DNA from: Laccaria trichodermophora
Lineage: Eukaryota > Basidiomycota > Agaricomycetes > Agaricales > Hydnangiaceae
NCBI GenBank assembly: GCA_018417955.1
Contig: JACTVC010000001.1
Location: 4,895,250 to 4,959,249, forward strand
Reading direction: 5' to 3'
Length of the DNA: 64,000 nucleotides
Below, one piece after another: positions 1 to 52,300 of the stretch (positions within the stretch are counted from its first letter, which is position 1; each line of letters opens with the position of its first letter). The translations under genes were made by a program, and so were the position numbers. The notes below the pieces were generated by a model. The model searched no databases. It was given only the letters and a program-made list of their open reading frames with translations, and was not told the DNA's origin.

Positions 1-234
1 TGCCTTCTCTTGCAATCTTTCTTTGACGTTTGTTATCTTTGACAGCCATTCCGATCCGAGACCTCCCAGCCTTCCAATTGACTTCTTAGCTCTCAGTGCT
101 TTTCTGCTATTACTAGCTACATTTTTTCACTAGTAGTATTTCGACACCTGCGCTTCACGGCGAATTGTCACCGTTTTTTTCCCTTCACTACAGTTCACTG
201 CTCGTTGGTCGGCAAGATTTCGGACTTTCAAATC

Positions 235-371
235 TATGGCGGTTGTTCTGCACATTTAATCCCCGCACACAACTTTCCGAGCACGCACGCAACTTTCGAC
301 CAGCGCACACGCAACTTTCGACTAGCGCGCAAGTTGCTTTCAACACTATTTCCACTGCACGCAATTTTTGA
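235..371 (+). repeat. Left terminal inverted repeat of the integrase transposon
   Basis: 137 bp, matching the reverse complement of 7086-7196 almost base for base over the shared parts. The outer 35 bp are identical. The inner part is an array of degenerate direct sub-repeats around the core CGCAACTTTCGACNAG, separated by GCGCAC-type spacers. This end carries about one more sub-repeat than the right end (137 against 111 bp). Sub-repeats of this kind are plausible transposase-binding sites, but that is inference. Confidence 0.92.
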
Positions 372-1630
372 TTTGTACTGTCTAATTAACTGTATTAGCT
401 ATTGTACGATGTTTCATCTAGGGAATGGTCACAAAAATAATTTTAATCTAATACTGGTAGCGTTGTTTTAGATTGCTGGGGTGTGTTAAATTGAAATTTC
501 TTGTCGAAGTGAGGCTCTAATGGGTTCTGTCGGAAAAATCCCAATTAGCATATGAGTCATTGCGGCAGCTGATAAACCTATGAGTGTTGATCAGTCTCCA
601 AGGGCAGACATATTTGCATGTTATCAGGTCATGTAACTTCGCGCGAAGTGCTAGCAACTGCTGAGAGGTTTCCGCAGACGAGCACATCAGAGTTTATTAG
701 ATTGTATCAGTCTACACTAATCTCGGGTATCCTTCATGAGCCCTGTCAAGCCTCTCAAATTGGAGCTTCCTATTGGCTTCCCAGACTTCTTAGAATGTGT
801 TGGACGAGGTGACATTGGTAGGAAAATTGTAGAAGTCAACATAGAGCACAGTCTGGGAAGCCGTTGGTGTTCAAACGTTCATAGCCGGCGCCGGAGCCCC
901 ACTGATTGTTTGGTTGGCATAATGCGTCATTTTATCGGAAATTCACAGGTGCAAAGTGGAGCAGCCCCACAACAGCCCCACAAACATTGAGCAAACATTG
1001 AGATGCTCGAATATATAAAGGGGGAGGAATCAACCCACCACGGATGCAGTCGCATAATCATTCCAATTCCCCAGCCCCCTTGGATTCAAAGAACATGCCA
1101 GTTCTCAGCATGGACGCTTCCCGAGCCGACTTGTTCAAGGTGACTGAAGTAGTTGTCCATTGCGTGGCGTCTAACTGATATCATGTGATTGCGTAACGCG
1201 TTTCGGACGCTCCCCAAGCCAAATTGAATCGTCTCAGTCACAAGTTTGCGGATATAACAAACGGCGAGGACGACAACTCCAGCCATCAGCCCAGAATGTC
1301 AGGATATCACCAACGACAAGGACAACAATTCCAGCCATCAGCCCAAACGTCGCCAAACTCACTGGATGCCGTGCTTCAGAGGTGGCTCAAACGACAGGTC
1401 GGGTTCGTTTGTATTCTATGAGAGCTGGCAGCGAGGCAACACTAGTCTAGTATCTGCCATTATGTAGTAGTGCACACCCAGCTCGAAATACATTGATTTG
1501 ATGGATTTGACATTCTCTTTGGTGTGAGACCTAAAGATTATGCTCAGAAAGATTCTGGTCCCAAATCGTAGTTTGTCAACCTAACCACTAACACACCTGC
1601 TCAGTACTAAAACGTCCAGTAATTACTGAT
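372..1630. other. Left non-coding arm of the transposon
   Basis: No recognisable gene. A strong TATA-like box (ATATATAAAGG) lies near 1010-1020, followed about 75 bp later by an ATG at 1094. That frame reads about 15 codons up to a possible GTGACT donor and matches nothing I know. A 36-bp sequence around CCAGCCATCAGCCC is repeated with a 52-bp period (about 1260 and 1312). I see no catalytic or zinc-finger motif in any frame. Confidence 0.5.
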
Positions 1631-2747
1631 CTAAGCGAGGGGGTCTATCACACCCATACGCAAGTTCTGTGGCTGAAATGCATCCCGAAATACTGATGAC
1701 CTGATGCGCACATATGAGCACCATATTGGTGCATCTAGGTTTTTCTCGAATTTTCCGACATCATCAGTCTGCATCTTCGTCAAGTCGGAAACAGCGTCAC
1801 TAATATACTCTTCGTCCTTGAGAAAAACTTTCCGTTCCTTGATCCACGCCACTGTCAACGTTTGACAAGCATCACATACGCCCGGTATCTTGACTTTCTC
1901 CAACTCTGCGAGGATCTCATGTCCCATTAAACCTGCATCCGGATGGAGGAGGAATTTCGCAAGACCATTCCACCACTCCTTCTTCCAGGAATAATCACAG
2001 TGGAGGGGGGAGGGGCACTCCGGGTCATTGATCGCCTCTGGAGGATGATAGGCGATTCCTTTTTTGAGCTCCTCGATGCGTGATTTGGTCTGGACGAGGT
2101 AGTGAAATGCAACAATCCCAATGCGTACGACATCGTCAAGGGAGAGTGTCAGAGCTGGCAGGCTGATGAGCTGTCGGAATGCAGGTTCAATCCAATGATC
2201 AATCCGATGACGGCGGGCAAGTTCAAGTTGAAGTGCTGGGTGGAAATCAGGTCTGCCTTCAAACTCTTTGATGGCATATGCGATCCCGTCCTCGATCTCC
2301 AGGAACGTTGAGAGATCAAGGATTGCAACAAGGAATTCATTGTCCCTTGGATATTCGCTAATAGCTTCCTCAGAAAATAAGATCATGGAAAGGGTAGGGT
2401 AATTCACACCTTGGCCCACAAAGCAAGTATGTCAGCAAATGCTCGAACTTTCCTGGCGTGATATTGGTTGATGGCAGTACAAAGGGATGGTCATCATCTT
2501 GACCATCCAGGGCACCTGATGACGTTGACAGGTCTCGCGGAAGTGAAAAAATCGTTGCGAATAGTTTAGAACGCCTCGCCAGGATACCAGTATGAAGACG
2601 ATATAAGGTCGTGTTCATCCGGTCTGACGCCTATTAGGCAGGTTAATCAACGGCTTGAAAACATGATATAACAAAGTTCCGCACTTGTAAGACGACATTT
2701 CCATCATCATAATAAAAAACTTCGTGCCTACGTCGGGAGGATTCCAT
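1631..2747 (-). CDS. BTB/POZ-domain protein carried by the transposon
   Basis: Predicted 336 aa from three exons (2747-2685, 2630-2410, 2357-1631) with short GT-AG introns. The N-terminal half shows the agaricomycete BTB pattern: YYDDGNVVLQ, then LYRLHTGILARRSKLFATIF, then FEHLLTYLL. It is followed by an alpha-helical part in which ARRHRIDHWIEPAF and a LSLDDVVRIGIV segment match the usual post-BTB region. Known: BTB domains dimerise and often serve as cullin-3 adaptors or chromatin factors. A target cannot be read here, as no C-terminal Kelch, MATH or DNA-binding domain is present. Its start codon faces that of the integrase only 6 bp away, so the two probably share a promoter region. The start was chosen because the first 21 codons complete the conserved BTB opening. 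The protein may be cargo or help transposition. Confidence 0.85.
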
Positions 2748-2753
2748 GACTGA

Positions 2754-4834
2754 GTGAATTTTATGGCAGAGTGGCCCACTGCCACGTTGATGCGAGACCC
2801 TGAAATCTATGATCACGATGATAACATAGTGTTTTATGCTTGCCTTCAATTCCTTATCTCGTCTCAATCTCCTCTCCCAACTATGGATGGACTTCCACAT
2901 TTCCCAGATCTTCCTGATCGTCAGATCAACCACCCGTGGTCACCGAATGTAATTGCGGCACACAGGATTCTCTCAGATACTTACGACCATGTGACAACCA
3001 TCTTGCGGCATGAAGATGCAGAACCGATACAATTGCGTATCCACGTAGAGACAATCAAAAGACAAATCTTTCCAATCCTTGCTGCACTTGAGGACGAGGA
3101 TGAGATGCGACTTGACCGGGACTGGGTTGTATGCTGTGCAAATATCTTCACGCATATCGCTCTTCAACTTCAGAGGGCCGCTCTTGCATTTGAAACAATG
3201 TAAATTTGTATTTGTTAATCCAGTGTTCTTAATCTAAGTATTATTTTTTACACATGCCTAGAGTACACGAGAAAGTAACACAAGTGATACCAGTGGGAGA
3301 AATACAGACAGGGTATCGTGGTCGGCCTCGAAAAACTTTTGACTGGGATTGGATGAGGGATGCAACATCTGCACGTCGTAACATCTCAATAGTTGCACTT
3401 TCCAAGGCACTCGGAATCCATCGAAACACTCTTAGAAATCATCTGCGAATGCACGGCATCTATCGGAATTTTTCTGCAATTACAGAGCCAGAAATCGATA
3501 CCCTGATTAGACACCTGAAGGAGAAGAAGCCCACGGCAGGTATTCGATATGTCATTGGATACTTCAGGCAAAATGGGATTCGAATACAACGACGACGAAT
3601 TCGAATGTCCCTCTATCGCATGGATCGGCTAGGACAAACTCTTCGGAATCAGGATGTTATCAAGCGTCGAAAATACAAAGTCCCACGACCAAATTACCTC
3701 TGGCATATGGATGGTCACCACAAACTAATTAAATGGGGTATAGTAATACATGGAATTATTGATGGTTGTTGTCGAACAGTAAGATGTCAAAATTCTTTGC
3801 CATATGCATTTTTGATTCAATTCGTGTGGTATCAAATTTAGAATGTTGGGATTAGGGCAAACACGAATAATCGGGCCTCAACAGTCCTGCAGCTGTTTCT
3901 TGATGCAATTCTGAAGTATGGTACACCCATGAAAGGCCGTGGTGACCGGGGTGGGGAAAATATTGAAGTGGCTGTTTGGATGATAAAATATCGAGGGCCT
4001 AACCGTGGATCATTCCTATGGGGAAGGTAATTCGGTCCAGTGGAAATTTAAGCTCAACTTTTTGATTTACTGCTATTCAGTTCAACAAGAAATTCTCGAA
4101 TTGAAAGATTTTGGGTAGAAGTCGGCTCTCAAGTTGCTCGACAATGGAGAGCATTTTTCACCCGCCTGGAAAATATTCATTCTCTAGATGTCAGCAAGTC
4201 ATGGCATCTGTGGCTGATCCATTTTTTATTTTTGGATGAGATTAACCATGATCTCTCAACATTTCAAGAAGAATGGAACCACCACCCTATTTCTCGTCTA
4301 GGGCATGAACAAAGCCCCCTTGTGAGTCCCAAAAAATCATAACAATATTCAAGTTATTTATGTAACCTGTATTTCAAGGATATACGGATGCTTTCAGAAT
4401 TAAAACATGGAAAATACAACGACATTCTACATGATATTCATCCAGAAACACTTCACCGATATTATGGAACACAGTCCTTGGATGGTGCAGATTCACAGAA
4501 CCTGGAGGACATGATTTCGACAGACCAACAACACCAACTTCGCCATGAACCAGTCAAGGTACCTGATCACACACCTCCGTTTGCTACACCAGAGGCTGCA
4601 GAAATATTTCTTGATGCTCTTGAAGACATAGATACTGCAGAAATTATTCCAGATGGGCTTGGTGTTGCAGAGGGAGAATGGGATATCAATGGTTATCCGG
4701 AGTCAGAAGAAATCAAGGTGGGGCGGAAGACTGTGGAAATTCAGTTACCATTCTCAATTTGGTGGCTGCGTGCTGTCCGTTGGGCCCGCACACTTGAACT
4801 TTTGGTTCACATTCAAATGGCGGAAAATCACTAG
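2754..4834 (+). CDS. rve-type DDE integrase/transposase
   Basis: Predicted 614 aa from five exons (2754-3199, 3262-3778, 3842-4026, 4081-4321, 4379-4834). Order: a helical N-terminal region of about 160 residues; a GRPRK basic motif near 170; a helix-turn-helix (ALSKALGIHRNTLRNHL, about 193-210); then the integrase core. The apparent triad is Asp299 in WHMDGHHK, Asp356 in RGDRGGEN and Glu391 in RIERFWVEV, giving 34 residues between the second Asp and the Glu, close to the classical D-35-E spacing. EEWNHHPIS and a PETLHRYYG motif close the conserved part. This family is common in agaricomycete genomes as integrase-core proteins. An apparent stop at 3839 is the acceptor end of an intron, so the gene is intact. 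The exact start is uncertain: ATG at 2754, 2763 or 2883 would all serve. Confidence 0.9.
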
Positions 4835-4971
4835 GTCTTCTTCATTACTAGTGCTAATTCAATGAAATCCAACGACGTGGTCATGTGATCAAATTTACTT
4901 TGACAAAAGGGAAGAAAAGCTTGTACGTCCACGTCAACTACTTTCCCAACCCCGGTCCCTGAGGACAGTGA

Positions 4972-6892
4972 ATGGCTTGTGGTGCAACCAAGCGCAATGG
5001 ACATGCCTGTGCCTGCACTCGATATATCAAACGTGAGAAGGACGAGAAGTGCTCGACATGTAAACACCTTCGATCCGCTCACACGGCCGAGAGCCCTCCC
5101 ACATTGCCCACTTCTCCTGTGAAGCTTACAGTCAGCGAAGTTCTCAATAAGTACAGAGAACGCACGGACAAGCTTCAGGCAAAGGCCACCGACACTGATG
5201 CTCGTCTTGAAGCGGGATTGGGTTTCCGCATTGACTCCGAGAAGAAGCAAAGCTCAAGGCGAAAGGTTAGTAACTTTGATATGTTCATGGTGCAAACGGG
5301 GCTAACCTTGACCAGAATGCAAGAGAACTCGTGCAGACCTCAGCCCCATCATCATCGAAACTTACAAAAACAGGTGCCGTGATGGTGTTACCCTGGGGAT
5401 TAAAAGTAAGTGTGCTTGAAGCGGAAATAAGCAAAAATTAAGGCTCACAATCGTAGCTCGATGGAACTTTGAAACAAGACAAGTGTCCCACAGCATCAGA
5501 GACAGAGATGTGGAGGCAAAGGGGCCTTGTTGTAGAAAAGGAACGTGGCAAGGACATCCAGTTCAGTCCGGATTGGGATGCTCGAGATATCGACAAATGG
5601 CTCCGTGGACTGTTTCCGAAGGTTTTCCAGTGGCTCGATGCATACCTTGGGAGTCCAACTGAAGGCTCGTTCCATTGGGTCCTCTTGCAGAAAGAACGGC
5701 GCAAGCTGATTGTGCTGGAAAGACCAGAGATGTCAGGAAAGGATCTCGTCTTGGCCCGGGGACCAGCAGGAAGAAAGTACTTGGAGTACACCATTCGTAT
5801 CGGTGAGTATAGTACAAAGCTGGAAAGTTTGGTCCACGTACTAATCTATGGCATGGTTGCTGATAGCCACACGATGCCAAATTCCGGAATCCGCTTCCCA
5901 AGACTGGGACGCTGCAATTGCGCATGCACAATCGGGGTCTGGAAGTGATACAAACGGTGATGGGACAGATGTGCGCCGAAAACAGGATGAATACGACGGA
6001 ACAGAGGAGGAGGAAGAGGAGCTAGCCCCTCGACGAATTTCGCACTGGCGTGGGGGCAAAGGCTCTGGTGGTGGCGATGAAAGTGTAGATCACAAGAAAG
6101 TCGCCAAGAATGTTCAGAAGAAACCCAGGCCCATCAGGGAAAACGATACGAGTGACTCCTCCGATTCAGACTTTCCCCGAGCCATCCTAGTGGACAAGGG
6201 GAAGGCTCGAAAGAGAAGTCCCCTTTTCGTCGAAAGTGGATCGGAGTCTGGCGATGTCCAAATTGTCGAAAACAACACTACGGGTATGTTAACTAGACTC
6301 CAGGCGGCCAACAGTGGTGACTCACCTTACATCCACAGGAACCCAACAATCACTTCGACGTTCCAAACGCCCCTCATCTCCCATCGACGAGCGCAGTTTT
6401 GAGGCAGACAGAGGTGAAGGCAAAGGAGTAAAGCGGCAGAAAGGTCCGTCAGTAAACCTCCCCATCAGGCCATATTGCTGATAATCCAACATTTGCGTCA
6501 CAGCTGCATCGTCGTCGCCTGGGTTAGATAACGATTTTGATTGGGCATATTATGCCTCACTCGATACGGCCGACGACTCTGGCGCAACAGGTTCCACTTC
6601 AGCCCCATCCGCTTCATTTGACCCAGAGTCCTATCTGGTGACGGACACTCTGCTTTCCCCTACCTTTCCTGGGCCCTCTTCGGTGACTAGCTTTCCTGGA
6701 CCCTCTTCGGTAGCCACTCTCCCATCTGGCATCTCTTCGACTCAGCCTGGCCCATCAGGATTACAGCGGAGCGCCCTCAGTAGCACCCTCAATACTCTGA
6801 CTGCTACCTCGCAGCCATCTACATCTTCACCACCAAAGAGGACGGGTTTCTCCAAAGCTCCGGAAGCCCGTTATAATCCTTGGAAGTACTAA
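4972..6892 (+). CDS. Cys-rich N-terminus, Ser/Pro/Thr-rich protein of the transposon
   Basis: Predicted 546 aa from six exons (4972-5265, 5316-5405, 5457-5802, 5867-6283, 6339-6443, 6504-6892). The first 40 residues hold Cys3, Cys13, Cys15, Cys27, Cys30 and His37, a likely small zinc-binding knuckle. A middle region (about 130-245) is folded-looking, with DIQFSPDWDARDIDKWLRGL and a KERRKLIVLERP segment. The rest is low-complexity, with acidic, basic-serine and repeated PGPSSV-type segments. Similar Cys-rich plus disordered proteins occur as hypotheticals in mushroom genomes, but I cannot name the family. Lying inside the terminal repeats downstream of the integrase, it may be a DNA-binding accessory protein (inference). 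The start is the first ATG of the Cys-rich segment. Confidence 0.78.
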
Positions 6893-7085
6893 GAAATAAT
6901 ATTGGGGATGGGGATTCTCAAAGGACACAACCGTTATCATATACCACCTACATTACCACCTCTACTTACACACTCCTTTTATCATCCCTCTTTCTGAAGT
7001 CTGTCTCTCGTTTAAATCCTTGGTCTATGCTATTTACCCTATTACTTAGTTGACTTAATATACTTTGACGGAAGAATTGATGAAG

Positions 7086-7196
7086 TCAAAAATTGCGTGC
7101 AGTGGAAATAGTGTTGAAAGTTGCGCGCTGGTCGAAAGTTGCGTGCGCGCTCGGAAAGTTGCGTGCGGGGATTAAATGTGCAGAACAACCGCCATA
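7086..7196 (-). repeat. Right terminal inverted repeat of the integrase transposon
   Basis: 111 bp, inverted relative to 235-371. Read on the minus strand it starts TATGGCGGTTGTTCTGCAC and ends in the same GCAATTTTTGA as the left copy. It lacks one internal CAACTTTCGAC-type sub-repeat. It is followed directly by CAAATC (7197-7202), the second copy of the target duplication. Confidence 0.92.
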
Positions 7197-7311
7197 CAAA
7201 TCGACGGAAAAACGCGATCTCCACGTGATTAGATGGAACCCTGAGGATCACTGTTTACATGTAACACACTGCGGCCGCTGTGCAGCTGCTCACGATACCA
7301 TACACCTCACA

Positions 7312-10161
7312 ATGAGCCAGCCCCCAGACCCACGTCAATACTCTTCACAACCAAAACGCCCAGCCTCGATCGCCGAGCTCGCAGAACGAGCTCTAGACAA
7401 CCTCTGGGACGAGAACAAGGATCTCAAGCACTATCTGCGCGTGGCCGAAAAGTACCGCCGCGATGGCAAGGAGTTTGCGAGGACGGGCGATCTGGAGAAC
7501 GCTTTTGTCCAGTTTGCGAGGGCCGCGACGCTGGTGCTTGAAAAACTGCCCACGCATCGTGATTACTACACGTTGCTGAAGCAGGCGCAGAGGCAGAATT
7601 TGGGATTGGTGCGTTTGTCTGTCTATCTATCCGCTGTTAGGTTTTGGTGTATTTGGGTTGTTGGAGGAATATCACTCTCATCTAACAGGCCAGCGCGAGG
7701 CAGATCATCTGTCGGGATACCCCAGTGCTGCTTCCGAATATGCATTGTTCACTTTCTTCGTTCCGTTCCCGATTTCCTTTAGTGATGTCATCTAACTTTT
7801 TGCTAAAAAACTACAGAACGGCCAAGACATTTTGGACAATCTCGGTGACCTGAAACCAACTCTAGTCGACAGGTTCGACAAGTGGATTCAAGCTCATCCG
7901 GATGGGATCGATAACGAACGCACACCTGATGCCAATCTGCCCCATCCGATGCCCAACGATGCTCAGGCCCAGCCATCAGCAGCGCAATACCACGAGGAAG
8001 AGCAAAGGCGAGAGCAGAGGAGGCTCGCAGCGGAGGAAGCTGCGCGATGGAGACGTCAGCGAGAAGAACAGGAAGAATTGACAGAGCGTACCCGAAAAGA
8101 CGCCTTTGCTGCCGCTCGTCAGGCCGCCAATGCCCCACAGCGGTCTGCAACGATCGACTATGGGTATTCCAGGCCACAATATGGGTCCTCGAACACGATC
8201 GTGGTGTCTGATGGGAGTCGGCACCAGCAGCAGCAGGAGGAGATGCGGAAGAGGGAGGAGGAGATCACAAGGAGGCGCGCAGAGGCGAAAAGGCTGCAGG
8301 AGCAGGAGGCGATCGCTCAGAGGCAGCAGGAGGCGGAGAATGCGGCTAGGGCTGCGAGGCAGGGACTTGGAGGCCCTAGCCCTAGTAGGCAGGCTGCGTT
8401 TCCTCAGCAAGCGGCGCATTATCAACAGGCGCCGACGAATAACTATTCTCAGCAGGCTTTTACCTCGGCAGCCGACTATTCCCAGCCGCAGCCATATCAA
8501 CAGGCGCCTCCTCCTCCCTCGACGAACAACTATTCTCAGCAGCAGCCTACTTCTTCGACGGGCAACTATCCCCAACAACAGAAGCAGCCTACGTCGGCTA
8601 TTAACTATTCACAACCTCAACAACAGGCGCCCAACTATTCCCAGCAGCAACAGGCGCCTCCTCCTGTCAACTACCCCCAGCAACAGCAGCAACAACAACA
8701 ACAACAAAAGCACTCTCCGTCGACTATCAACTACCCTTCTGCTGGGCCCTCGTCCGCAGGCCATGCACAACCCCGCCCAGTGTCGTGGTTTGACGCACCG
8801 AGGATCATGCCTTTGGAAAACCCGACTTATGAAGGGGACTCGACCGATTCGGAATCTGTGCAGAACCTCCAGCATGATTTTAGGCGGTTGGGAAAGCAGA
8901 AGCAGGCTTTGACGCCTGGGAGGGCTCCTGTTCGCAGGTATGTTTTACTTATATCTATCTGTAGTTGTTGTGTTGAGCTGAGAAACTTAGCCCTTCGTAT
9001 CCCCCGCCAATAACCACCACATCGCCCCCGCCCATCCAAGGTGGGCGAATATACTACCCACAATTGATGTCTCAGCACCAGAAGAGGCAGGGATATTACC
9101 CATCGCTTAATTCCATGTTCGTTCCTACAGATGATCAGACGCCTGTCCCGTCTACACTATTTTCAATGGACAAGTCTGGGTCAGGTGGTGGTGGTGGTAC
9201 AGGGAAGAGTGGTTATTCGACGAATGTACCTCCTCCTCCGCCACCGGCGCAATCAAGGTTGTATTATAACATGCCACCGCCTCCTCCACCACCACCACCA
9301 CAAGGCTCAGGGCAGTATTCAGCGGTGTATCAAGGCCCTTCGAGGCCTGCCCCCCCCGTCCCCTCTGCCCCCGCCCCACGCCCCGAATCAGACCCCTCAC
9401 ATACCCTTAAAAACGTTAGTCTTCCACGGGAGTGTCTTCCCCGTTTTTTGGCCATTGCGAGTTTGAATACGCTTGCGAATCGGGAGACGTGTGGGTTGTT
9501 GTTGGGGAAGGATAAGGGGCATCGGTATTCTGTTACGACGTTGTTGATACCGAAGCAGCATGCAACGAGTGATACGTGTACTATGGATGAGGAGGAGTTG
9601 GTTATGCAGTTTACGGAGGAGAGGAGTTTGATTACGCTTGGATGGGTGAGTTTTTTTTTGTATCTTTTTGAAGGTTGGGCTGATGGGTTGGGTGACTAGA
9701 TACATACGCATCCTTCTCAATCATGTGCGTATTGTTTTTTCTTTCTTTTGGGGGTTTGTGTGTTGGGCTGATGATGGGATGGATAGGTTTCATGTCTTCT
9801 GTGGATTTACATACCCATTCTGGATTTCAACGGATGTTGCCAGAGTCGTTTGCTGTTGTCTGTGCTCCCAATTCGAATCCAAAGTACGTTTCGGTCCAAG
9901 CCCTTGTTCATGCTCATGCTCATGTTGCTCAGCTTTGGCATATTCCGCTTGACGGACCCTCCGGGTCTTACCACTGTTCTAGAGTGTACCGTGAAAGAAG
10001 CGTTTCATCCCCATCCTGATTTACCCATATACACGGTACGTTGTTTGGCTTCATCGTCTTCCTTTTCTCCACTTAACCCCCCCCCCCTTTCCTTCCAGGA
10101 CGCGGATAAGGGGCATGTGCAAATGAAAGATTCTTCTTTGGAAATCGTGGATCTACGTTGA
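7312..10161 (+). CDS. AMSH/STAMBP-like JAMM deubiquitinase
   Basis: Predicted 786 aa from seven exons (7312-7608, 7817-8937, 8991-9645, 9700-9724, 9787-9883, 9933-10035, 10099-10161). Residues about 15-120 resemble the USP8-dimer/MIT-like N-terminal domain ([20 protein letters not shown]). A charged coiled coil and a Q/P-rich low-complexity middle follow (runs of Gln, then Pro and Gly). The C-terminal MPN+ domain has the JAMM glutamate in [10 protein letters not shown] and [14 protein letters not shown] for the catalytic zinc. It also has DLHTH plus [12 protein letters not shown], which supply the second zinc site seen in AMSH proteins. Known role: Lys63-linked ubiquitin removal at endosomes with ESCRT-0/III (fission yeast Sst2 type). 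The catalytic histidines sit on a 25-nt exon. A transposon lies just upstream and may affect the promoter. Confidence 0.95.
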
Positions 10162-45565: not shown

Positions 45566-46391
45566 GTTCGGTTGGGTTGAGGATTTTTCTGTATGGATCA
45601 TGATGCGGGACGAATTTAACCATGAGCTTTTACCTCCCAGCTTGTTCTATGCCATTCTCCTTATCGACCTTGTGCCACTGTTTCACACTCGGTAAACTGA
45701 CGATTGTTACTGGTCGGAGAGAGCTTTCCTCAGCCACAAGTGAATGTTGGCAGGTGCTAGTATTGTTTGTTGTTTTTTGTGCTTTGACCTTGGGTATGTT
45801 TTGGTTTGCCTTGTCTCTCGCTCACTCCAGAATTAAGCGTCCCGAGGGGCAATCAGAAACCAAGAAGGATGAAGTCAGTGGCTTCAGACTCACTTGACCA
45901 TCAGAAGAACGTCCTACCAAGTCAAAATTCATTCCAAGCTACATCTTATAAATCCCTTGGATATCAAAATGAGGGGATTCATTGTACTGATACTATCTAC
46001 GACCTAGCTGCCTGGCACATCGATATCATAGACTAATATTCTCGGGACCATTACATTATAAACATGCATGTTCAGCCAACATGAAATATGCTAGCATGAA
46101 TTCATCTCCATTTTCTATACCGCCACGATCTCCTATAAAATTCTCCTTACTCCCCAATGTTTCTTCGGGTTTCGAGCAAGTGGTTTCAATTATTTACCTC
46201 AAACTGCGGGCCGCGAGCGTTTTGGGTCAGTGGCCACGTGGGAGTTTGTCACCGTAGGAAACGGCCAGGACGGCAACCACGACTTTCTTACCCACCGCCA
46301 GCTGAGGAGACCGGCCGTCTACCTTCCCTTGTCTTTTCTCCTTCAAAAAGTAATCCAGAGCGTCTAGCAGCGGCCCTAGCTGCCCGCCACG
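45566..46391. other. Intergenic, chitin synthase promoter region
   Basis: About 830 bp. A short frame at 45622-45897 has one hydrophobic stretch but no family match. The upstream in-frame extension seen from 46157 belongs to a different frame from chitin synthase exon 1 and is not coding. Confidence 0.5.
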
Positions 46392-49300
46392 ATGAACAGG
46401 CACTCTACTGCCGCCATGAACGCCCACCAACGCCTAGAGGCCGCCACCGACCTCGCAGGCCTCTCTCCGATTTCAGACGATATCATCGTCGCCTGTCTTC
46501 GCGAGAGATTCATGACAGACACCATCTACACCAACATCGGCTCCTCCGGCGTCGTCGCCCTCAACCCCCACAAATATGTCGCCTCAAATTCGGATTCCAT
46601 GCTGTACAAGTACGCTGCAGAGTACCGGGACTCGTCAGAACACAAGGAGAAACTCCCCCCACACGTTTTTCAGATCGCCAACAACGCTTACTACCACATG
46701 AGACGGACAACGCAGGACCAGTGCATTTTGTTCAGGTGCGTCGTGGCAACTGCCCCACAGCCTCTTTTGATGCTCATCTATCCATCAACAGCGGTGAAAC
46801 AGGGAGCGGCAAGTCGGAGAACAGGCGCCTCGCCATCAAGTCCTTGTTGGAGCTCAGCGTGAGCAATCCTGGCAAAAAGGGCTCTAAGCTCGCTACCCAG
46901 CTTCCGGCTGCAGAGTTTGTGCTTGAGACGTTCGGAAACGCTCGTACCCTCTTCAATCCCAACGCATCTCGATTCGGAAAGTACACTGAGCTGCAATTCT
47001 CAGACCGTGGACGGCTCAGCGGTGTCAAGACACTCGACTATTACCTTGAGCGGAACCGTGTGGCTGCCGTGCCTTCAGGCGAGCGCAATTTCCATATTTT
47101 CTACTATCTCGTCGCAGGAGCATCACCAGAAGAAAGGCAGCACCTTCACCTCCTCGACAAATCCACCTATCGATACCTTGGCCAACGTGGGACGGGGGTT
47201 ACGAGACCTGGGCGTGACGAAGATGCGCAGCGCTTCGATCAGCTCAAAATAGCTCTGAAAACAATTGGGTTTTCCAAACGACATGTTGCGCAGACGTGCC
47301 AGCTCATTGCTGCCATCCTCCACCTTGGCAACCTCGAGTTCACCGTTGACCGTCATCGCAATGAGGATGCGGCGGTTGTGCGGAATACGGACGTCCTTGA
47401 GATTGTGGCCGACTTTTTGGGCATCCAGCCTGCTGCGTTGGAGGCCGCATTGTCTTACAAGACCAAGCTTGTCAAGAAGGAGCTTTGCACGGTCTTCCTC
47501 GATCCAGATGGTGCATCTGATAACAGAGACGACCTCGCCAAAACCCTCTACTCGCTGCTCTTTGCATGGTTAAACGAGCACATCAATCAGCGTCTGTGCA
47601 AGGACGACTTCACCTCCTTCATCGGCCTTTTCGACCTCCCCGGCCCACAGAACATGTCGAGTCGACCCAACTCCCTCGACCAATTCTGCATAAACTTTGC
47701 TAACGAGCGCCTCCAGAATTGGGTCCAGAAGCGTTTGTTTGAAAGTCATGTCAACGAGTACAACCTCGAAGGCATCGCGCGGCTCGTTCCCCAAGTACCA
47801 TACTTCGACAACTCAGAGTGCATTCGCCTCCTGCAGAACTCTCCTGGGGGGTTGATACATATCATGGATGATCAAGCGAGGAGACAGCCGAAGAAGACGG
47901 ATCATACCTTGGTGGAAGCCTTCCAAAAACGATGGGGAAATCACTCATCTTTCAAGACTGGCGCAGTAGAGCGGTCAGGGTTCCCCTCGTTCACGGTCAA
48001 CCACTTTAACGGCCCTGTCACGTATTCGTCTGAAGGTTTCCTGGATCGGAATTTGGACGCCGTGAATCCGGATTATGTTTCTTTACTCCGTGGAGCTACT
48101 GATGGGCTGGAGGGCACGGGGTCGATCAACCCTTTCGTCAAGGGCCTGTTCTCAACCAAGGCTATCGCAACGCAGGCACATCCAAGGAATGAAGACACCA
48201 TCGTTGCAGCCCAACAGGCCGTCAAGCCCATGCGTGCCCCGTCGACTAGGAGAAAGAACACCATCAAGCGGATGCCAACGGTGAAAGAGGGGTTGGGGCC
48301 AGATATCGAAGAGAGGGACGAGGAGGAGGGGGGACCATCAGGCGGACCGTTGACGAGCTCCAGTCCGTGTGTTGCAGGCGAGTTCAAAGCTGCCTTGGAC
48401 ACGCTGTTCGAGACTCTGGATGAGACGCAGCCGTGGTATATTTTCTGCGTCAATCCGAATGACTCGCAGCTTCCGAATCAGTTGGAGGGAAGGAGTGTGA
48501 AGGGGCAGGTTAAGAGCACGGGCTTGGTGGAGATTGCGAAGAGGTGCACAAGCATGTTTGAGGTCAATATGACGCCTGAGGAGTTTTGCGAGCGCTATTC
48601 GGAGGGCTTGGAGGGTGGAGGCATTTCGGAGGGAGATGCTCGTGAGAGGGTTGATCAGGCTAGGACAACGTTTGGGTTGGGTGATCGAGATTTGGTGTTG
48701 GGTCAACATAAGGTGAGGTTTCCTTCGTTTGATTGAGGTTGATGCGTTATCTCATTATATGGTCATTCTTAGGTGTTCCTCTCCCAAGTCGCTTTCCACA
48801 AATTTGAGGATCAGCTAAGGTCTCACGACGTTGAAGAGCAAAAGCGAAATCGTATTCGCGACCAAGAAGCTGAGGCCGGCTTGGACCCTCGTGGTTTGCA
48901 CGACCCGTATGCGCCTTACCGGATACCAAACGACGACCTTGAACCTTCACCATGGGGCAATGGTTACCAAGAAGCCTTCAACAACTCCAACCAGGCCCTC
49001 CCCCTCGTCTCTAACGCGTCTCCGTTCCAGAGATCTGACTTCCCAGCAAACGAGATGTACGACGACTACGAGGAGAACAAGTCTGTTCGGAGCGAGGACT
49101 TTGATGGTCGCAGCAGGTTCACGAGTAATCGCGACGAATCTGTGTCAAACTTTGGGTCAGAGTCGTATGCCCCTTCTCGCAACATGTTCCAGAATACTGA
49201 CAAGAGGGGGCTCATGGAGAAGGAGGCGCTCGCCGGTGAAATTCAAGAGGGAGAGACGTCAGAGGTGCTGAAGGAGAGTTCAGCTCGTCGACGATGGGTC

Positions 49301-52300
49301 GCGTTGTGCTGGATGTTGACGTTCTGGGTCCCAACTCCTCTGCTCACCTACGTTGGGCGTATGAAGCGTATGGACGTGCGACAGGCTTGGAGAGAGAAGC
49401 TTGCTCTCAATCTCCTTATCTGGTTCATTTGCGCCTGTGCCGTCTTCGTCATTGCCGTCTTGGGGGTGGTTATCTGCCCTACTGAACATGTCTTTAGCAC
49501 GTCCGAACTCGCCTCTCACTCTTCCGTTCTCAATCCAAACAACGTTTATACCTCCGTTCGTGGAGAGGTTTTTGACCTAACTACTGTTGCTGCTACACAT
49601 CAACGAGTCGTTGGTGTTGTTCCTACTAAGGCTATCTTGAAATACGGTGGACAATCCGCGGACAATATCTTCCCAGTTCAGGTACGTTTTCCGTTTGATT
49701 TTCTCATTCTTGTCCTTACTCTTGTTTACGTAGGTCAGCGCTTTGTGCGATGGTACATCAGGTTCTGTCAGCCCTTACGTCACCCTGGATTCCTCGAATA
49801 ACACAGACCCCAACTCCGTGTACCACGATTTCCGCGCCTTTACCAACGATTCCCGGCCTGATTGGTACTTCGAGAGCATGGTCGTAATGCGGTACACGGC
49901 TCGCGTTGGGTTCCTTGGGTATACTCCCAAGGAAATTAGGAACATGGCCAGTGCTGGGAGATCTGCTGCCATTTACAACGGTCTGGTTTACGACGTCACG
50001 AACTACCTCACGAGTCCCCCCGCTGTTCGATCACCAGCTGGTACACAGGCTCCCGCCACGGACACCAACTTCATGTCTGGGGACGTTTTGAATCTTTTCC
50101 AGGTTCACGCGGGCACGGATATCACAAAGCGGTTGAATTCGCTGAACATCGACAGTGACGTCCTTGCGAGGCAGAAGGTCTGCTTGCGCAATCTGTTCAC
50201 TATCGGAAAAGTGGACAATCGCCAATCCCCTCAGTGCCTGTTCGCGACCTACATCCTCCTGGTACTTTCCATCATCATGGTATCGATCATCGGCTTCAAA
50301 TTCCTCGCCTCCATCAACTTTGGCTCTGCACGCGCTCCGGAGGACCATGACAAATTCGTCATTTGTCAGGTGCCGTGTTATACCGAAGGTGATACTTCCC
50401 TGCGCAAGACCATCGACTCCCTCGCTCAGATGAAGTACGACGACAAACGCAAGTTGCTCCTCGTCATTTGCGATGGAATGATTGTTGGTTCCGGCAACGA
50501 TCGTCCAACCCCGCGCATTGTCCTCGATATTCTGGGAGCTGATCCGAATTTGGATCCTGAGCCTCTCAGTTTCATGTCCCTCGGTGAAGGAGCCAAGCAG
50601 CACAACATGGGCAAGGTCTACTCCGGCTTGTATGAGTGCGCAGGTCATGTCGTGCCATACTTGGTCGTTGCGAAGGTTGGCAAGCCGACTGAGCGCAGCC
50701 GTCCTGGCAATCGTGGTAAACGAGACTCTCAGATGCTTCTTATGCATTTCTTGAACAAGGTTCGTCATTTCTTTCACGCTGTTAGCTTCTTTCCCTTACG
50801 CCGATTGAACAGGTCCATTTCAACTCTCCGATGAATCCGCTCGAGCTCGAAATGTACCACCAGATCAAGAACGTCATTGGCGTCAACCCATCTTTCTACG
50901 AGTACTTATTCATGGTGGACGCTGATACGACTGTGGACCCGCTCTCTGTTAACCGCCTCATTTCTGCGTACGTCCGTTTCCTTTGTCGATATTTTCGTCG
51001 GCTTAAGTTACCATACTAGGATGATTCATGACAAGAAGCTGCTCGGCGTTTGCGGCGAAACTGAACTGGCCAACGCGAAGCAATCTCTCATCACGATGAT
51101 GCAGGTAAGTTTGAAGTTTCTAGTTGGAGATCTAGCCTTCTTACGACCTCTTTAAAGGTGTACGAGTATTTCATCTCCCATCACATGGCAAAGGCGTTCG
51201 AGAGCCTTTTTGGATCCGTCACCTGTTTGCCGGGTTGCTTCACCCTTTACCGCATCAGAACGCCTGATACCCATAAGCCTCTACTCATTTCCAACCAACT
51301 TATCCACGACTACTCGGAGAATCGTGTCGACACACTGCATATGAAGAACCTCCTGCATCTTGGCGAAGATCGATACCTTACCACGTTGCTCCTCAAGCAC
51401 TTCCCGCTCTTCAGAACCCAGTTCATCCGCGACGCTCATGCGTACACCGTGGCTCCTGATGACTGGAAGGTTTTGCTGTCTCAACGTCGCCGCTGGATCA
51501 ACTCGACAGTCCACAATCTCGGGGAGCTCATCTTTTTGGAGCAGCTTTGCGGTTTCTGTTGTTTCTCGATGCGTTTCATTGTAATGATTGATTTGGTTTC
51601 GACCCTCACACAGCCCGTCACTGTTGCATATGTAGGTTTTACCTTTTCATTCGATCAGGTATCTGATTACCTCTCAAGATCGTGTATTTAATCTACCTGG
51701 TGGCCGGTGAAGGCAAATCCATCCCCACGTTATCGCTTATCATGATCGCCGCGATCTACGGTATTCAAGCCCTGGTTTTCATCATGCGACGGAAGTGGGA
51801 CATGATCGGATGGATGTTATTCTACATCCTTGCCATTCCCGCCTTCTCCTTCTTCTTACCTCTATACTCGTTCTGGAAGATGGACGATTTCTCTTGGGGT
51901 CAAACACGTGTCGTCCTTGGTGAATCTGGCAAAAAGATGATCGTTCATGTAAGCTTTCATCTCTCTTTTTGAGAGTACACGACGCTAACTTCCTTATCAA
52001 CCAGGACGAAGGCAAGTTCGATCCTCGGTCTATTCCTCTTAAGTCATGGAATGACTACGTGAGCTTTGCCTGTTCTCTTCTTTGTTTGTTCGCTAACACC
52101 CTTCATCAGGAGAACGAGCTCTGGGACAAGGAATCGAATCACAGTATCGGATCCTGGGTCCCTCAAACCAAAGCAAAGGAAGCTTACGCAGATTCTCGCA
52201 CTGCTTCGTTATACGGCCGAGAAACCTACTACGAGCCTCAAGGACGCAGCTTCTCACCAGCCCCATCTCAGCTCGGCATGTACCCACCTCCAGGATACCA

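Follow-up and report, generated by a model that had tools for sequence, protein, structure and literature searches.

An IS3EU transposon of Laccaria trichodermophora and the genes that recur beside its integrase

Transposons of the superfamily IS3EU, which has been in Repbase since 2013 and forms one lineage with GingerRoot, have TA..TA ends and usually generate 6-bp target duplications, according to the sections of PMC10045372 consulted here. The same sections give duplications of 4 bp for Ginger1, in which an HHCC motif is found, of 4-5 bp for Ginger2, and of 6 bp for Polinton (PMC10045372). As described in part of a study of rusts, IS3EU elements of these fungi have TAYGG..CCRTA ends, inverted repeats longer than 30 bp and 6-bp duplications, and they include a TET/JBP gene located between the transposase gene and an alpha-kinase gene of opposite orientation; fungal transposons of other superfamilies carry TET/JBP genes as well (PMC12730594). 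IS3EU elements have also been counted in the genomes of Ganoderma and Phlebopus (excerpts of PMC8955403 and PMC12411881). Styx, from Zymoseptoria, is a multigene element of about 8 kb with an IS3EU-type transposase and 36-bp inverted repeats, for which a duplication length of 6 bp was used in the search; its other genes encode GATA, CCHC and DUF3577 domains, and the term BTB is absent from the text of that paper (PMC10853768).

The window analyzed here, a stretch of 64,000 nucleotides from Laccaria trichodermophora, includes at positions 235-7196 a transposon of this known superfamily that is real, recently inserted and for the most part intact. With high confidence, the locus as a whole is best explained as a complete, recently inserted cut-and-paste IS3EU transposon belonging to a lineage with a recurring three-gene set. 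An earlier note on this DNA had regarded the element as possibly an undescribed family; as a new kind of element this did not hold, because the features of IS3EU, including those of fungal representatives, are already published, in the parts of PMC10045372 and PMC12730594 consulted. What was not expected is the set of genes: a BTB-like partner is present at 16 of 19 integrase loci, and a third gene is common to the window's family and a second one.

The element, its ends and a nested insertion

The features of the element are as follows.

229..234, no strand: left target duplication CAAATC.
235..371, plus strand: left terminal inverted repeat, starting TATGGCGGTTG; includes a 26-bp stretch absent from the right repeat.
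270..319, plus strand: three CAACTTTC repeats starting at 270, 290 and 312, within the left inverted repeat; candidate binding sites.
528..1760, no strand: nested 1,233-bp transposon with ends TGTCGGAAAA and the duplication TC at 526-527 and 1761-1762; not in the C4, C28 and C25 copies.
1631..2747, minus strand: BTB-like gene, 336 aa, with a tail from the nested insertion; exons 2747-2685, 2630-2410 and 2357-1631.
2883..4834, plus strand: integrase (DDE transposase), 571 aa; exons 2883-3199, 3262-3778, 3842-4026, 4081-4321 and 4379-4834.
4972..6892, plus strand: third gene, 546 aa, no Pfam family; exons 4972-5265, 5316-5405, 5457-5802, 5867-6283, 6339-6443 and 6504-6892.
7086..7196, minus strand: right terminal inverted repeat, with three CAACTTTC on the minus strand at 7116, 7134 and 7154.
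7197..7202, no strand: right target duplication CAAATC.

The exon structures of all genes are predictions read from the sequence alone.

The first letters of the inverted repeats, TATGGCGGTTGTTCTGCACA, are read on both strands, and the right terminus stops at 7196. The repeats can be aligned as two pairs of arms, 235-309 with 7122-7196 (75 nt, 96% identity) and 337-374 with 7083-7120 (38 nt, 97% identity), and the CAACTTTC motif, present three times in each repeat, is found only once elsewhere in the window. The CAAATC hexamers on both sides are an exact 6-bp duplication. The inverted termini and the duplication recognized in the earlier note were thus both confirmed. The first 172 bases of the element matched 24 places in the 59-Mb genome to which the window belongs, which puts the termini far beyond chance. 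To the right of the element, at a distance of about 110 bp, begins a host gene encoding a USP8 dimerisation domain (window positions 7312-7611), and the insertion is therefore located just upstream of its likely start codon.

While the ends of the element stand as originally described, its size of 7 kb does not, because it includes the nested transposon. This insertion is unique to the window copy among the four long copies, the other three (C4, C28 and C25) reading through the site, and the element proper is consequently about 5.7 kb. The nested transposon has seven further near full-length copies in the genome, of which the C15 copy is 100% identical, indicating that it moved recently. By description only, its TGT..ACA ends and 2-bp duplications are like those of PlavakaA (PMC12730594, seen in part). 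The insertion also affects the minus-strand gene, which beyond the last shared residue has, in the window copy, 43 residues taken from the nested transposon in place of the 13 residues of the C4 copy. Therefore the original description of three intact genes was only nearly right: the integrase gene, with five predicted exons and GT-AG introns, and the third gene, with six predicted exons, are intact, but the minus-strand gene is an open frame whose tail is read out of the nested insertion.

Copies in the genome and sites without insertion

The 24 places resolve into four long copies (the window copy on C1, and C4, C28 and C25), six short two-ended copies and three places at which a single end was seen. 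Apart from the element of the window, the genome thus holds three long and six short two-ended copies. The short copies, 0.87 to 1.13 kb in length, have only the ends in common with the window element and sort into two groups by their interior. Exact 6-bp duplications flank seven of the ten two-ended copies. The exceptions are the C4 copy, which has none, a C3 copy flanked by the end sequence itself, and a C23 copy in which four of the six bases are alike. The right end of the C4 copy is CCCTA. A TA-flanked insert with CAGTC..GACTG ends, which we take to be possibly Tc1/mariner-like, is found in the third gene of the C4 copy (about 6327-7003 of its piece).

These copies bear on the notion that the region is a domesticated host integrase gene surrounded by accidental repeats and not mobile. 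An intact integrase frame, such as that of the window, is compatible with domestication, but the four long copies occupy separate loci and share their ends, exact duplications flank three of them, and the integrase of the C25 copy carries stops. Domestication is thus extremely improbable, and it was rejected on the basis of the copies with inverted repeats and duplications.

To search for sites without insertion, the flanks of ten insertions were joined with a single copy of the duplication and compared with the genome; 40 of the 68 candidates were scored, and the sites so identified are related repeats elsewhere in the genome and not alleles. Six related places without insertion were among the scored candidates for the short copy at C1:837095, and the two that were examined, on C5 (96%) and C24 (92%), are uninterrupted and include a single ATATTG. 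The copy at C23:236291 has a related empty site at C23:331786 (89%), where CGTATC occurs once. The duplicates flanking this copy are TGTATC and CATATC (1498-1503 and 2547-2552 of its piece), each one CpG transition away from CGTATC, as expected from cytosine deamination. For the remaining eight insertions, including that of the window, the 40 scored candidates of the 68 yielded just their own flanks or one-sided repeats. The single hexamer anticipated in the earlier note was therefore found at empty sites of two short copies and not for the window copy. The related empty sites fix the ends of the element and the 6-bp length of the duplication.

The integrase, its relatives and the placement in IS3EU

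The integrase matched the Pfam rva_4 core with an E value of 8.6e-62, and a weak helix-turn-helix match precedes the core. The candidate catalytic residues, assigned by eye, are D256, D313 and E348, with 34 residues between the last two. A pattern search found no HHCC ahead of the core, the region up to it including just the cysteines 84 and 85. When the protein was compared by sequence with solved structures only four weak matches were obtained, three of which were hemin-transport proteins, the fourth being a small protein from a bacterium. A search of viral contigs with exon 2, which reaches close relatives, gave four pattern matches and no relative, and no close relative of this exon was found in a collection of phage records. 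Among the matches listed in a literature search for rva_4 or PF24764, none was related except the Styx paper.

At least 19 integrase loci were identified in the genome, 18 of them from 19 matches, two of which on C56 were joined, plus one on C67. Two other, distant integrase families are located in elements of the same build as that of the window. The C10 element is 8,042 bp long, has inverted repeats of about 454 bp starting TATGGCTGTCC and is flanked by an exact TGGGGT duplication, while the C20 element comprises 7,015 bp, its 53-bp repeats start TATGCTGTTAG, and ATTGAC is exactly duplicated at its flanks. The integrase exons of these two elements share 45% and 52% identity with those of the window. 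For this genome, the view that such integrases belong to DNA transposons with long inverted repeats and 6-bp duplications, put forward from the window alone, is supported by two distant families. The C36 twin of the C10 element has no duplication. The C36 copy lies between TTTGTA and TACAAA, which are inverted and not direct (around 694 of its piece), in a region with inverted repeats of its own. No element ends were found for C14 and C17, and just one for C7.

The element agrees with the description of IS3EU/GingerRoot in its TA..TA ends, 6-bp duplications, lack of an HHCC motif and rve-like core, and the first D of its integrase, at residue 256, falls within the 100-300 residues from the N-terminus given for that group; it differs in having BTB-like and third genes, neither of which appears in the consulted descriptions (PMC10045372). 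The TA..TA termini are found in the window copy and in two other families. The window's family also shows the form known from rusts, with TAYGG..CCRTA ends, repeats longer than 30 bp, 6-bp duplications and a second gene opposite to the transposase, but this gene is BTB-like here and encodes an alpha-kinase there; furthermore, the third gene is located on the other side of the integrase, whereas TET/JBP lies between the transposase and the alpha-kinase in the rust elements (PMC12730594, in the part consulted). Styx shares with the window element the IS3EU-type transposase and the presence of several genes (PMC10853768, in part). The C10 and C36 elements, like the window's family, begin with TATGG. 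On the other hand, the TATGC start of the C20 family and the lack of an exact duplication at three of the ten copies and at C36 count against this placement, which was made by comparison with published features. The elements of C7, C14 and C17, whose ends are incomplete or were not found, the window copy, for which no empty site came up among the 40 scored candidates, and the three integrase loci that have no BTB-like neighbor likewise speak against the overall explanation.

That the element belongs instead to Ginger, to Polinton, to another retro-related integrase transposon or to a new superfamily is an alternative reading. The integrase core does match the general rve model, albeit weakly (28.6 bits, under the cut-off of 32.6), and Ginger1 and Ginger2 have an rve-type DDE core as well. 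However, the duplications of 6 bp, as opposed to the 4 bp of Ginger1 and the 4-5 bp of Ginger2, and the lack of the HHCC domain found in Ginger1 led to the rejection of a Ginger identity (PMC10045372, in part). Polinton would account for the length of the duplication. The TA..TA and TATGG..CCATA ends are nevertheless those of IS3EU, and Polinton carries a DNA polymerase, whereas none was seen among the genes of this element. Taken together, a placement outside IS3EU is quite unlikely.

For the IS3EU transposon a mechanism can be proposed, in which the spliced DDE integrase, with its helix-turn-helix stretch and without an HHCC zinc domain, would bind the CAACTTTC repeats within the terminal repeats, cleave at the TA..TA termini and insert the element into a new target through cuts staggered by 6 bp, generating the 6-bp duplication. 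The same protein may also move the short copies that retain just the ends. What were "integrase core" genes of one fungal genome can now be considered a transposon lineage for which exact ends, duplications and empty sites are known, and annotators gain a rule for finding such elements.

The partner genes

The lineage has a recurring gene set in which the integrase is accompanied by a divergent BTB-like gene and by a downstream third gene. The minus-strand protein of the window matched the Pfam BTB model (PF00651) with 19.1 bits, below the curated cut-off of 20.5, and the C14 counterpart reached 20.6 bits, just above it, while the C20 counterpart gave no BTB match up to an E value of 1. The gene had 38 matches in the genome, 21 of which were dropped because they correspond to the last 40-52 residues, i.e. 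the tail from the nested transposon. Of the 17 used, 16 are at integrase loci, upstream and on the opposite strand, with 0.82 to 1.88 kb between the match and the integrase exon, and this place and orientation are constant down to about 26-30% identity. Three of the 19 loci (C1:1751085, C15:499657 and C67) have no BTB-like neighbor. By contrast, the Pfam BTB model, with 22 matches in the genome, has none at any of the 19 loci, the nearest being about 26 kb away on C10. Thus, the genome has a set of BTB-like genes that are carried by transposons. The remaining match, C34:1261103-1261675, has no integrase match nearby and may be a decayed element or a lone gene.

In the largely open-access literature searched, no report tying IS3EU to BTB genes was found; the only paper in which both terms occurred, PMC8965078, deals with methylation in buffalo mastitis, as far as its consulted part goes. 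In this literature, no paper brought together BTB, integrase, transposase and Agaricomycetes, and none treated cut-and-paste transposons along with both Ginger and BTB.

The third protein matched no Pfam family, and with the window's own version of the gene as query no matches were obtained outside the four long copies of its family. The C10 protein encoded downstream of the integrase is related to this third protein, as indicated by BLASTP of the two proteins against each other (1e-07, 31% over 89 residues), by tblastn on a 10.7-kb C10 piece (9e-05) and by comparison of profiles (probability 95%, a reversed control giving 0.3%). Relatives of the C10 protein are found near the integrases of C36, C20:168k, C7 and C17:489k, and a further one at C17:446300, about 43 kb from the C17:489k integrase. 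The counterpart at C20:422k is likely kin to the window's gene, and no more than likely, since the evidence consists of one weak profile match (E value 4e-4, probability 36%) and position; used as a query, it found no other locus in the genome. A single-sequence structure prediction for the conserved exon of the third gene had a mean pLDDT of 42 and was not used.

Selection on the three genes was estimated from pairs of copies. The long copy that is most divergent from that of the window is C25; for this pair, dN/dS values of 0.26 (integrase), 0.31 (third gene) and 0.09 (BTB-like gene) were obtained, and C25 has stops in the integrase and third genes and none in the BTB-like exons. The ratio of silent to replacement changes in the BTB-like gene differs from those of the integrase (Fisher p 0.014) and of the third gene (p 0.005), both computed from rounded counts. 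The comparison of C10 with C7 gave 0.16 to 0.26 for pieces of all three genes, the C10 pieces being open frames and not checked exons, with one stop codon skipped; C10 and C36 gave 0 to 0.28 with few changes. In the older pairs, therefore, dN/dS is below 1 for all three genes, with its minimum at the BTB-like gene of the window's family.

The fixed position of the partner genes and the selection acting on them speak for a contribution to transposition or to dealings with the host. Most likely, the BTB-like and third proteins aid transposition or shield the element from host silencing, the former perhaps acting as adaptor for a protein of the host. Tentatively, and with somewhat less than even confidence, we propose that the IS3EU elements of this fungal group are a distinct lineage defined by a conserved set of genes, to whose working the BTB-like partner contributes, for example as an adaptor through which a host ubiquitin ligase or chromatin factor acts on transposition or silencing, and that this partner is under stronger selection than the transposase itself. 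A rival explanation, also held with less than even confidence, is that both genes are passengers, picked up by chance in a single event and serving no function for the element. Fungal transposons do carry genes that are passed on in this manner, such as TET/JBP in IS3EU (PMC12730594, in part), the near-identical pairs (window with C4 or C28) gave dN/dS values of 0 to 1.6 with too few changes to judge, and the third gene of C20 is only weakly similar to that of the window. A passenger, however, would not readily explain a BTB-like gene that keeps its place and orientation at 16 of the 19 loci across such divergence, nor a dN/dS that is lower for this gene than for the integrase and the third gene. 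The recurrence of the BTB-like partner suggests that the transposon depends on a second, host-facing protein besides its transposase.

Elsewhere in the window, positions 46157-49801 include two adjoining frames in which a myosin motor domain and a weak match of cytochrome-b5-like type occur, a layout that we take to be that of a fungal chitin synthase with a myosin head.
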